Shown here piece after piece: positions 58,517-61,648 of a stretch of DNA of 61,844 nucleotides. The stretch comes from Acetomicrobium sp. S15 = DSM 107314 (lineage in GTDB: Bacteria > Synergistota > Synergistia > Synergistales > Thermosynergistaceae), in NCBI RefSeq assembly GCF_016125955.1, contig NZ_JADEVE010000173.1, positions 1 to 61,844 of the forward strand. Direction: 5' to 3'. Position numbers and translations under genes: made by a program. Positions within the stretch are counted from its first letter, which is position 1, and each line of letters begins with the position of its first letter. Below the pieces are notes generated by a model. The model saw only the letters and a list, made by a program, of their open reading frames with translations. It did no database searches and was not told where the DNA came from.

Positions 58517-58939
58517 CTAAAAATCTTCCACCCAAAGCAAATAATCGAATTTATCCTTAAGAGCGTTGTAAAGTTTCTTATCTGCAGTGACAAGGGGAGC
58601 TTTTTGAGCTTGGGCCAAGGCCAGGTAGGCCGAGTCGTAAGCCGAACGGTCGTAAAGATGAGCTATCTTTAACGTTTCGATGCAAGAGACTTGATTTTCG
58701 GGGATACTCATAAACTCAAATTCTCTCAGCGCCCTTTCGGCATCGCTCGGCTTTGTCCTGCTGATCTTAAGAGCTCTCCATATGGCATTGGTAACTTCAT
58801 ACTTCAGAAGTGGCACGGTGAGCAGCTTCAAGTCATCCAAGAGGAACTGGGACAACAGCCGCAATGCAGGGTCTCTATGTGGTTCGTCCGGCAGCAGGCT
58901 GGCAATTACCACCGAAGCATCCACAGTCAGCTTAGTCAC
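58517..58939 (-). CDS. vapC: VapC-like PIN domain toxin
   Basis: 140-residue PIN RNase. Acidic active-site residues are visible: LTVDASVVIASLL (Asp7), LKYEVTNAIWRAL (Glu near 47), LYDRSAYDSAYLALA (Asp near 101) and LVTADKKLYNAL (Asp near 119). All positions are intact, so the toxin is likely functional. It overlaps the antitoxin gene by eight bases, the typical VapBC layout. Confidence 0.9.
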   Translation of the reverse strand: MTKLTVDASVVIASLLPDEPHRDPALRLLSQFLLDDLKLLTVPLLKYEVTNAIWRALKISRTKPSDAERALREFEFMSIPENQVSCIETLKIAHLYDRSAYDSAYLALAQAQKAPLVTADKKLYNALKDKFDYLLWVEDF

Positions 58940-59168
58940 TACGGGTCTCCAACTCTTCTCTTGATGGGTAATATATGTCCTCCAGCGTCAGCCCCTTGAA
59001 CTCCTCACCTAACTCGACCCACTTCTTGAGGGTCTGCCTCCTTAAGCTGGCTACAGCGGCTTCCTCCAGAAATTCGCTCCTCTTGCGAGGGCCCACAATT
59101 CCGTCGATCTGCTGGATCACCTTTTTTGAAAGGTTAACCTGCGTTCTGCGCTTTTGGTTTTCTTTCAT
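58932..59168 (-). CDS. vapB: VapB-like ribbon-helix-helix antitoxin
   Basis: 78 residues. RTQVNLSKKVIQQIDGIVG followed by RSEFLEEAAVASLRRQ is a ribbon-helix-helix DNA-binding domain at residues 8-45. The C-terminal 30 residues are acidic (LEDIYYPSREELETRSD) and would wrap around VapC. ATG 59168 is preceded by AGGGGCGG on the minus strand. It should repress its own operon. Confidence 0.83.
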   Translation of the reverse strand: MKENQKRRTQVNLSKKVIQQIDGIVGPRKRSEFLEEAAVASLRRQTLKKWVELGEEFKGLTLEDIYYPSREELETRSD

Positions 59169-59316: not shown

Positions 59317-59345
59317 TTGACAAATCCTGACCATACTCATATAAT
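59317..59345 (+). promoter_or_regulatory. consensus sigma-70/sigma-A promoter of the ctsR operon
   Basis: TTGACA (59317-59322), exactly 17 bases, TATAAT (59340-59345): a perfect match to the vegetative consensus. CtsR boxes start seven bases after the -10. Confidence 0.9.
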
Positions 59346-59351
59346 ACTTCT

Positions 59352-59381
59352 CGTCAAAAAAGGTCAAAGTAGGGGGTCAAA
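59352..59381 (+). promoter_or_regulatory. CtsR operator with three heptamer repeats
   Basis: CGTCAAA (59352-59358), AAA, GGTCAAA (59362-59368) forms a CtsR box with the canonical three-base spacing and one mismatch. A third GGTCAAA (59375-59381) follows after six bases and overlaps the ctsR ribosome binding site GGGGG. This indicates autoregulation at both transcription start and possibly translation. Confidence 0.8.
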
Positions 59382-59386
59382 GCCGT

Positions 59387-59866
59387 ATGTCCAGTCTTAC
59401 CGAGAGCATAGAAGAATATATCCTGAAGCTCTTAGAAGAAAGGGAGAGCGACTTTGTCCTCTTGAGGCGAAAAGACATAGCGGAATATTTCGGCTGTGTC
59501 CCGAGCCAGATCAACTACGTCTTGCGCAGTCGCTTTACCCCTGAGCTCGGCTTTTTGGTGGAAAGCCAGAGGGGTGGGCATGGCTATATTCGCGTAACTC
59601 GGGTTTGTTTTTCCGATCCGGAAGAGAAGATCAATCACGTAGAAGAGCTGGTCGGAGACGCGGTTTCCGAACAGGAGGCAAAACGCCTTTTGGGCAACCT
59701 GCAGCGTCGCGGCTTGCTTTCCGTGCGCGAGAGACTCATCGTCGAGGTGGTTTTACGCTTTTTGGGGGAGCTGGGCTCAACATTGTTCGACCTGTCTCCT
59801 TACAAAAGGGATGCTATCAACGCTGAGGTGCTCAAAAGGGTCCTAAGGAGCCTTATAGTGGCGTAA
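59387..59866 (+). CDS. ctsR: class III heat-shock repressor CtsR
   Basis: Represses clp and its own operon until heat stress. 159 residues. The winged-helix region holds LLRRKDIAEYFGCVPSQINYVLRSRFTP near 25-52 (in part) and the glycine-rich wing SQRGGHGYIRV near 58, which contacts DNA and senses heat. The C-terminal half (EAKRLLGNLQRRGLLSVRER) matches the dimer and McsB-contact domain. It heads the operon ctsR-mcsA-mcsB-clpC. Confidence 0.96.
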   Translation: MSSLTESIEEYILKLLEERESDFVLLRRKDIAEYFGCVPSQINYVLRSRFTPELGFLVESQRGGHGYIRVTRVCFSDPEEKINHVEELVGDAVSEQEAKRLLGNLQRRGLLSVRERLIVEVVLRFLGELGSTLFDLSPYKRDAINAEVLKRVLRSLIVA

Positions 59867-59881
59867 AGGGGGGCGAAGCCA

Positions 59882-60421
59882 ACGAAGTGCGATCGTTGTC
59901 ATACGAAAAATGCCACAGTTTATATAAAACAAGCGGTCGATGGCGAAGTAAAAGAATATCATCTCTGCGATGAATGCGCTCGCAACATGGAGGCGGATAA
60001 GCTCTTCCCGGAGTTCGGGCAGTTGGATTCGGCTTTCGGTAGTCTCTTGAGTTCCCTGTGGGAGCCTTTCGTGCCCGAAAAAGTGAGTTCGCACCATCTA
60101 ACGAAGAAAAAGGTCGTTTCGTGTCCCAAATGCGGGTTAGATTTGGCCGGCTTTCAACAGGTAGGCAAGTTCGGCTGCGCCAGGTGTTACGAAACATTTA
60201 AAGAGTATATTAATCCCTTGGTGAGGAAGATTCACGGGGCTGATGTCCATCGTGGCCTTCGCCCTGGGAGAAAGCGCGCGGCAAAAGGTGCCCCACTTGA
60301 CGAACTCGACGCCCTTCGCAGAGAGCTCCAGGAAGCCGTCGAGAAAGAGGAATACGAACGGGCGGCTCAGTTGAGAGATCGCATTCGCACCTTGGAGGGA
60401 AGATCCGGTCATGACGCTTGA
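59882..60421 (+). CDS. mcsA: McsA, activator of the arginine kinase McsB; apparent ACG start codon
   Basis: 179 residues if read from ACG 59882. McsA binds zinc and activates McsB. CDRC (residues 3-6) and CDEC near 30 form the first zinc site and CPKCG...CARC near 82-101 the second. The C-terminal UVR motif is LRRELQEAVEKEEYERAAQLRDRIR (partly). The frame has no ATG, GTG or TTG between the ctsR stop and residue 36 (ATG 59987, which would lose the first zinc site). ACG sits exactly where other McsA proteins have Met and has AGGGGGG nine bases upstream. It may be a real rare start, a mutation or a base error. Confidence 0.85.
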   Translation, partial: TKCDRCHTKNATVYIKQAVDGEVKEYHLCDECARNMEADKLFPEFGQLDSAFGSLLSSLWEPFVPEKVSSHHLTKKKVVSCPKCGLDLAGFQQVGKFGCARCYETFKEYINPLVRKIHGADVHRGLRPGRKRAAKGAPLDELDALRRELQEAVEKEEYERAAQLRDRIRTLEGRSGHDA

Positions 60422-61469
60422 GGAGATCGTCAAATATCCGCTTGAATGGACTAAGGGTAAGGGAGAGAGGTCAGATGTGGCGATCTCAAGCCGCATCCGG
60501 TTGGCGAGGAACATCGCCGCTTACCGTTTTCCCGTTCGCTGCGATGCCGGGGAGCTGAAGGAGATCGCCGATGCCATATCAAAGGTCTTGACTGCCTCTC
60601 CTATGTTGAAGCGAAGCAAATATGTCGCAATAGACGATCTCTCTCCCCTGGCGCGTCAAGTCCTGGTGGAAGATCACCTCATAAGCCCTGAGTTCGCCAA
60701 GGGAGGCGCGGGGCGCATGGTAGCCCTCGACGAGCGCGGCTTGGTTAGCATAATGGTCAACGAAGAAGAACACCTGCGCATCCAGGTGATCATGGGGGGG
60801 TTGAACCTCCAGGAGGTGTGGCGAATAGCTCAGGCCATCGATGAAGAATTGGAAGCCTTAGGATACGCTTTCGACGAGCGCTTGGGTTTTCTGACTTCAT
60901 GCCCTACAAATGTGGGAACGGGCATGAGGGCCTCCGTCATGGTTCATATTCCCGCCTTGGAGCAGATGCGCTCCTGCGGCTCCTTGATCAGGGAGTGCAA
61001 CAGGCTCGGTCTTACCGTGCGCGGTACCTATGGAGAGGGGACCGAGGCCGAAGGCGCGCTCTATCAGATCTCTAACCAGGTTACGCTTGGCCTGAGCGAG
61101 GAGGAACTGATAGAAAAGGTCTCGTCCGTCGTCGCACAGGTGGCGGATCAAGAGGAAGCGGCCAGACAGGAATTGTTGCGAAGGCAGGGAATTAAGCTTG
61201 AAGACGAGATGTGGCGGTCCTGGGGTGCGCTGCGCTATGCCAGGCTCGTGAGCAGCCGCGAGGCCTTGAAGCACCTTTCCCTCGTGAAGATGGGAAGCGA
61301 TTTGGGGATTACGCCACACCTCGATGTGGAGGAGTGGAACAGTTTGATCCTAAACATTCAGCCTGCGCACGTAGAGGCCTTTGCCGGCAGGGCGCTCAGT
61401 CCCGAGGAAAGGGATGTGGCAAGGGGTAATTTTTTGCGCGGGCGCTTAAAGATGATAAATGAGGAGTGA
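60411..61469 (+). CDS. mcsB: protein arginine kinase McsB
   Basis: Phosphorylates arginines to mark proteins for ClpCP and to inactivate CtsR. 352 residues of the ATP:guanido phosphotransferase fold. [18 protein letters not shown] near residue 24 is the N-terminal ATP-site motif, [19 protein letters not shown] near 163 contains the conserved cysteine and NVGTGxR loop, and [20 protein letters not shown] near 203 the phosphate-binding arginine. The start overlaps mcsA by 11 bases. The C-terminal domain (to 352) is complete. Confidence 0.96.
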
Positions 61470-61474
61470 TAGCA

Positions 61475-61648
61475 ATGTGGCAATTTTTTACAGAAAGAGC
61501 AAAAAGGGTTATACAGTTGGCACACAGAGAGGCCTTGCGCCTCGGACATGACGTTATAGGCACCGAGCACCTGCTCTTGGGGCTTATCGCCGAGGGCGAG
61601 GGCGTAGCCGCTCAAGTCCTCACGTCCATGGGAGTGGAGTTGCAATGA
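61475..61648 (+). pseudogene. clpC: ClpC ATPase, N-terminal fragment cut by a sequence junction
   Basis: The first 57 residues are a standard Clp N-domain start: [20 protein letters not shown], then [21 protein letters not shown]. Normal ClpC continues for about 750 more residues. Here the frame ends at TGA directly after SMGVELQ, where sequence of another kind begins. GAGGAG precedes ATG 61475 and it follows mcsB by five bases. The gene is either disrupted or the window joins two unrelated segments. Confidence 0.8.

Follow-up and report, generated by a model that had tools for sequence, protein, structure and literature searches.

The mcsA gene of Acetomicrobium sp. S15 = DSM 107314 very probably begins at an ACG codon, located at position 59882 of the 61,844-nucleotide stretch of contig NZ_JADEVE010000173.1 that was analysed here (the window). 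The sequence points to a genuine, weak start that would be driven by its Shine-Dalgarno (SD) sequence and probably aided by re-initiation, in a genus that appears to tolerate near-cognate starts. The gene belongs to a clpC operon at the end of the window, in which open reading frames together with Pfam and NCBIfam models identify ctsR, mcsA, mcsB and the first part of clpC. The relevant features are the following.

59387 to 59866, + strand: ctsR, class III heat-shock repressor of 159 aa, ATG start, TAA stop at 59864-59866 (Pfam CtsR 1.8e-31, CtsR_C 1.5e-13)
59867 to 59873, + strand: AGGGGGG, predicted SD of mcsA, 8 nt before the ACG (duplex -12.6 kcal/mol, anti-SD assumed standard)
59882 to 59884, + strand: ACG, inferred mcsA start codon, at the McsA initiator position and identical in the sister species
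59882 to 60421, + strand: mcsA, 179 aa from ACG to TGA, with CxxC pairs at residues 3/6 and 29/32, both upstream of the first canonical start
59987 to 59989, + strand: ATG, mcsA codon 36, first in-frame canonical start, judged not to be the start (SD -0.9 kcal/mol)
60411 to 61469, + strand: mcsB, protein-arginine kinase, ATG start, overlapping the end of mcsA (NCBIfam NF002194 4.4e-120, above cut-off)
61475 to 61648, + strand: clpC 5' fragment (Pfam Clp_N 5.3e-15), truncated at a probable assembly fault of the contig

The original prediction held that no ATG, GTG or TTG occurs in the mcsA frame between the ctsR stop and codon 36, and that the ACG occupies the initiator position of McsA, preceded by AGGGGGG at a suitable distance and followed by KCDRC. 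All these points are borne out by direct reading of the frame, in which the TAA is followed by agg ggg gcg aag cca, then by the ACG and by aag tgc gat cgt tgt. To these observations we add that mcsA and ctsR share one frame, the TAA alone separating the two. The NCBIfam McsA model NF053706 matches the protein with an E value of 9.2e-41 and 139.6 bits, below its 210-bit cut-off, and aligns residues 2-173 with profile positions 2-172; since residue 2 falls on position 2, the ACG corresponds to position 1. The predicted SD pairing amounts to -12.6 kcal/mol at the ACG versus -0.9 at ATG 59987 when calculated with the standard 16S end. For reference, when the strongest canonical candidate of each gene is taken across 223 orthologous pairs, the median is -10.5, and the mcsA value, with the anti-SD assumed, surpasses this median as expected of a non-canonical start that relies on a strong SD. 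All SD energies given here rest on the usual bacterial anti-SD because no 16S 3' end was found in the 0.90 Mb of this genome (G000) and the 0.66 Mb of the sister genome (G001) that were searched. The RNA around the mcsA start is not unusually unstructured (z = -0.04), and no match to the start region was encountered in viral contigs.

The protein carries two hallmarks of the McsA family: within a clpC operon, its gene is flanked by ctsR and mcsB, and the N-terminal CxxC pairs are accompanied by a C-terminal UVR domain (Pfam UVR, residues 141-172). Residues 3-172 also match the solved McsA structure 8wtb_B (E 5.9e-30). Further downstream, clpC stops at a near-identical internal repeat of about 80 bp and is followed by unrelated sequence up to the contig end (61640-61844), with an antisense frame that we take to be transporter-like. 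A 98%-identical clpC start on another contig (G000:C438, L103) continues, by reading, into more of clpC, and the contig end is probably misassembled, about 1.8 kb downstream of the mcsA start. Upstream of ctsR, TTGACA at 59317 and TATAAT at 59340 (window 59317-59381) are found together with a GGTCAAA heptad that recurs 6 nt further on, the second copy overlapping the ctsR SD region; all these elements also exist in the sister species, and the region looks like a CtsR-autoregulated promoter, the heptad being named in PMC12634643. Similarity to the sister locus ends at about 59300. A small gene pair is encoded on the minus strand just upstream of ctsR (58517-59168). It presumably corresponds to a PIN-domain toxin and its antitoxin.

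McsA was searched for in 61 genomes and matched in 33; loci were cut from 30 of these, the matches in G004, G024 and G030 being left unread. The sole other member of the genus among the 61 genomes is the sister species Synergistales bacterium 54_24 (G001, mcsA locus LGFQ01000038.1), whose DNA is about 94% identical to that of G000, with roughly 5-7% of the bases changed within ctsR, mcsA and mcsB. It carries the same TAA-AGGGGGGCGAAGCCA-ACG, identical throughout the 15-nt leader from TAA to ACG and beyond. A non-canonical mcsA start is present in more than one species, namely in these two only. At the corresponding codon, the 28 other relatives, which all belong to the same order and some of which are near-identical to each other, carry ATG (26/28) or GTG (2/28), and several of them display G-rich stretches between ctsR and the mcsA ATG. 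Among ten additional loci (L031-L040), L031 repeats the sister locus and L032 that of G046 (L021), L033 and L034 come from outside the order and carry GTG and ATG respectively, and L035-L040 match the C-terminal part of McsA only and were not counted. The simplest history suggested by these sequences would be a canonical ancestral start that changed to ACG before the two species split.

The N-terminus that this start adds to the protein is well conserved. Cysteines 3, 6, 29 and 32 are found in all 31 aligned rows (L002 and L031 being the same contig, with L029, L030 and L032 left out). Agreement with the nearest relatives reaches 20/34 for residues 2-35 and 45/104 for residues 36-139, and the first segment is better kept than the second in each of the 28 rows that remain once the sister species is set aside. 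Compared with the sister alone the order is reversed, identity being 30/34 for residues 2-35 versus 100/104 for residues 36-139. Between the two species, codons 1-35 contain 4 nonsynonymous and 2 synonymous changed codons, compared with 5 and 18, respectively, in the remainder of the gene (Fisher p = 0.056) and with 18 and 89 in ctsR, the remainder of mcsA and mcsB taken together (p = 0.013). The four replacements (T8A, K9R, V19I and N35D) all affect positions that vary in the order. This excess of nonsynonymous changes could reflect a weaker constraint, or mild relaxation, of the McsA N-terminus.

A second gene of the genus is in the same situation. The holo-ACP synthase gene acpS displays an ACG at the initiator position in both species:

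G000:C336:65376 (L129:5376-5741), + strand: acpS, ACG ATT TGC GGC ATA GGC GTT GAC, SD -8.6
G001, C51:27617: acpS of the sister species, ACG identified by pattern search

The ACG is regarded as the initiator because 10 of the 12 acpS-type models listed, including TIGR00516 (above cut-off), align residue 2 to position 2. The first canonical start occurs 29 codons after the ACG, past Asp8, which we take to be a catalytic residue. One of the two ACG-started genes, mcsA and acpS, is essential in other bacteria.

Near-cognate starts extend beyond ACG in this genus. When the 0.90 Mb of G000 was compared with the 0.66 Mb of G001, 230 of the 807 predicted G000 genes yielded a reciprocal best match, of which 223 were retained after quality filtering. 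These pairs were scanned for near-cognate codons (AAG and AGG allowed) with an SD of -6 or lower, located 8 codons or more ahead of the first canonical start common to the pair. The scan listed 13 of the 223 pairs, six of which (mcsA ACG, mnmE CTG, otsB CTG, an lptF/lptG-type permease ATT, trkH ATA and infC ATA) were judged convincing because protein homology begins at the near-cognate codon and the next shared canonical start is well inside the protein. That canonical start has an SD of -3.0 or weaker in five of the six, otsB being the exception at -8.3. The remaining 7 candidates were rejected because their first shared canonical start, or another canonical start soon after it, has an SD of -4.5 or better. 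Five of the six convincing genes sit on one contig, C415, the source of 56 of the 223 pairs, so the proportion of 6/223 may not hold genome-wide. With acpS and infB, the near-cognate starts common to both species concern eight genes, mcsA, acpS and the following.

L073:8182-9540, - strand: mnmE, CTG start, both species
L163:4607, + strand: lptF/lptG-type permease, ATT start, both species
L160:12413, + strand: infC, ATA start, both species
L160:13598, + strand: trkH, ATA start, both species
L159:3395, - strand: otsB, CTG start, both species
G000:C73:54070 and, in G001, L179:3310, + strand: infB (IF2), CTG start, both species

In the sister species, infB reads TGA-CGT-CTG-AGC, preceded by GAGGAGGGA; one codon separates the CTG from the in-frame stop, and codon 12 is an ATG. 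CTG AGC AAA ATT of infB is also present in G000 (C73:54070). Of the 19 relatives searched, 15 have a best infB match that starts within residues 1-3, and 3 more have a second piece starting from residue 2. For mnmE, an in-frame canonical codon exists upstream of the CTG in G000 and a stop immediately precedes the CTG in G001; the roles are reversed for the permease, with a stop before the start in G000 and the upstream canonical codon in G001. The ATG at codon 4 of otsB in G000 is replaced by ATA in G001. Matches begin at residues 1-4 in 39/41 relatives for mnmE, in 41/41 for the permease and in 25/29 matching relatives for trkH, and at residues 1-6 in the 40 matching relatives for infC. These figures concern how far the matches extend and not which start codons the relatives use, so that the near-cognate starts of genes other than mcsA may or may not be special to this genus. 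Two additional CTG codons, each looked at in one species, are plausible, likely starts: that of a RACo-like gene in G001 (L042:2909, + strand) and that of a cysK-like gene in G000 (C415, complement of 32962). An ftsW-like CTG candidate was dropped owing to an ATG upstream.

Single genomes were scanned as well, with a strict procedure retaining near-cognate codons that have an SD of -8 or better, no in-frame canonical codon upstream and, 15 codons or more downstream, a first canonical codon whose SD is weaker than -5. It returned 6 of 807 genes in G000 (permease, trkH, infC, cysK-like, acpS and mcsA), 3 of 510 in G001 (RACo-like, mnmE and infC) and 1 of 241 in Escherichia coli K-12 (infC, ATT), the E. 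coli regions being chosen to contain infC, pcnB, mnmE, lptF and infB. The strict scan misses true cases, as judged from its omissions: mcsA is absent from the G001 list though its sequence is equivalent to that of G000, and pcnB (ATT) of E. coli, mnmE in G000, otsB in either species, and trkH and the lptF/lptG-type permease in G001 were likewise passed over. A looser scan gave 11/639 in G000, 10/394 in G001 and 12/201 in E. coli; it was dropped as a rate because of the E. coli figure, of which infC alone was accepted, and infB was kept from it after separate checks. The mcsA start looks like one instance of a wider near-cognate pattern in the genus. It may equally well prove right or wrong that start stringency is relaxed across the genus, with housekeeping genes (infB, infC, acpS, mnmE, the lptF/lptG-type gene, trkH and mcsA) using CTG, ATA, ATT and ACG as conserved starts much more often than in other bacteria, by virtue of strong SDs and stop-start coupling in tightly packed operons.

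Several other readings of the mcsA junction have to be weighed. The protein might start at ATG 59987, the first canonical start in frame, and lack the N-terminal CxxC-CxxC unit, the upstream codons being a remnant. The nonsynonymous excess in codons 1-35 and their lower identity to the sister species would agree with such decay. Against this stand the SD, almost absent at ATG 59987 and strong at the ACG, and the conservation of residues 2-35 and of the four cysteines in the rows described above; furthermore, acpS is in the same situation, and the loss of its N-terminus would take away Asp8, the residue presumed to be catalytic. A start at ATG 59987 is rejected on the SD and on N-terminal conservation, and we consider it improbable. 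The single frame shared by ctsR and mcsA, in which five sense codons follow the TAA, could alternatively suggest that this stop is read through to yield a CtsR-McsA fusion. However, neighbouring genes fall into one frame by chance in 1 of 3 cases, and a strong SD lies at normal spacing between the ctsR stop and the ACG, like the G-rich stretches of several relatives. Read-through would explain neither acpS nor infB, the frame of which has its own stop just upstream. Given the SD at the ACG and the ctsR-mcsA junctions of the relatives, a fusion is very unlikely.

The original prediction had left three options for the ACG, namely a true rare start, a mutation or a base error (T to C), and had proposed a comparison with close strains. 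A misread T is conceivable, as the assembly is a draft made up of 438 contigs and probably contains a misjoin some 1.8 kb further along, but the same ACG in a separate genome at about 94% identity, and the ACG of acpS in both genomes, speak against it; the base error is excluded as far as sequence allows, and we attach next to no probability to it. The sister genome also rejects a mutation confined to this assembly. Just as little credence is given to a C-to-U editing of the transcript that would convert ACG into AUG as in plant chloroplasts: ACG to AUG editing is mentioned for these organelles in PMC9845219, yet no such editing could turn the ATT and ATA starts found in this genus into AUG. 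Editing of this kind is not known to occur in bacteria. The true rare start is the option that gains support, and it appears fixed in the genus: both species share the ACG and its leader, a strong predicted SD is positioned at the ACG rather than at the next ATG, the CxxC pairs are kept and acpS also begins with ACG.

As to how a genuine ACG start would operate, we infer that the AGGGGGG, at its 8-nt spacing, positions the ACG in the ribosomal P site, where the ordinary fMet-tRNA(CAU) would accept it despite the second-position mismatch, McsA thereby beginning with methionine. Ribosomes ending ctsR 15 nt upstream would probably aid by re-initiating at mcsA. Re-initiation is a likely helper because several near-cognate starts directly follow a stop: those of mnmE (in G001), otsB and the cysK-like gene are immediately behind one, that of infB is 3 nt and that of mcsA 15 nt away (upstream frames read by eye except for ctsR), and the trkH start overlaps a TAG in another frame (by eye). 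No special initiator tRNA (CGU) was found in the 0.90 Mb of G000 and the 0.66 Mb of G001; the search turned up only an ordinary CAU initiator, which has C1-A72 and three anticodon-stem G-C pairs, together with a tRNA-Thr(CGT) of the usual kind. Nor was any obvious relaxed-fidelity lesion detected in IF3, a protein of 191 residues of which 10-171 align with solved IF3. The output of mcsA would probably be below the ATG level, so that McsA, the kinase activator, would be in short supply compared with CtsR and McsB. A lower McsA dosage is plausible by analogy, since non-canonical codons of this sort usually give low expression: measurements cited in PMC11497404 place CUG output at about 0.86% of AUG, and AUU/AUA starts with extended SDs in Staphylococcus aureus reach about 10-30% of AUG, that is about 10% in poor medium and up to 30% for ccpN in rich medium, according to PMC13009471. 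McsA activates McsB and modulates CtsR (PMC12634643), a role that a low McsA level would fit.

A second-position mismatch generally makes a poor initiator, and the main measurement of all 64 codons as starts is reportedly that of Hecht 2017. In kind, the mcsA ACG is a conserved non-canonical start like those of infC, sigR and the S. aureus genes. In the latter species, cvfC1, ccpN and infC carry conserved AUU/AUA starts that, as in mcsA, are kept across species with a strong or extended SD, and one gene of this set encodes a putative zinc-finger protein, a further likeness to mcsA (PMC13009471). The AUN starts leave the first two bases intact, in contrast to the ACG of mcsA and acpS, which is a second-position mismatch. 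Streptomyces sigR, with its GTC start, resembles mcsA as a stress-response regulatory gene in which a rare start sets dosage relative to a partner protein; it differs in codon and gene, and by the fact that IF3 repression has been demonstrated for it (PMC5472188). The same source describes the non-AUG start of infC, AUU in E. coli, in the context of IF3 autoregulation. The infC gene of the present genus also lacks a canonical start (ATA), but unlike this classic single-gene case seven further genes are common to both species here. Gene order and protein families of the operon are those of Bacillus subtilis ctsR-mcsA-mcsB-clpC as presented in PMC12634643, from which the ACG start of mcsA departs. 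ACG does occur as a start codon in annotated sORFs that encode no more than 20 aa, mostly from Escherichia (PMC11796252). For bacterial genes as long as mcsA, the literature, judged mainly by titles and the beginnings of abstracts and with subscription papers mostly outside this scope, showed no naturally occurring ACG start, which is no proof of novelty. The mcsA case differs from the known ones by its second-position mismatch codon, the presence of this codon in two genes and a genus with several core genes devoid of canonical starts.

A pair of genes that begin with ACG in both species would demonstrate that a codon mismatched at its second position can serve stably as a start in nature. 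Programs that accept no start codons other than ATG, GTG and TTG would truncate such proteins, for example leaving AcpS without Asp8 and McsA without its N-terminal CxxC unit. Should start stringency indeed be relaxed, the occurrence of the IF2 and IF3 genes among the near-cognate starters would couple initiation fidelity to its own machinery, and the genus would offer a natural setting in which to study how initiation fidelity becomes relaxed.
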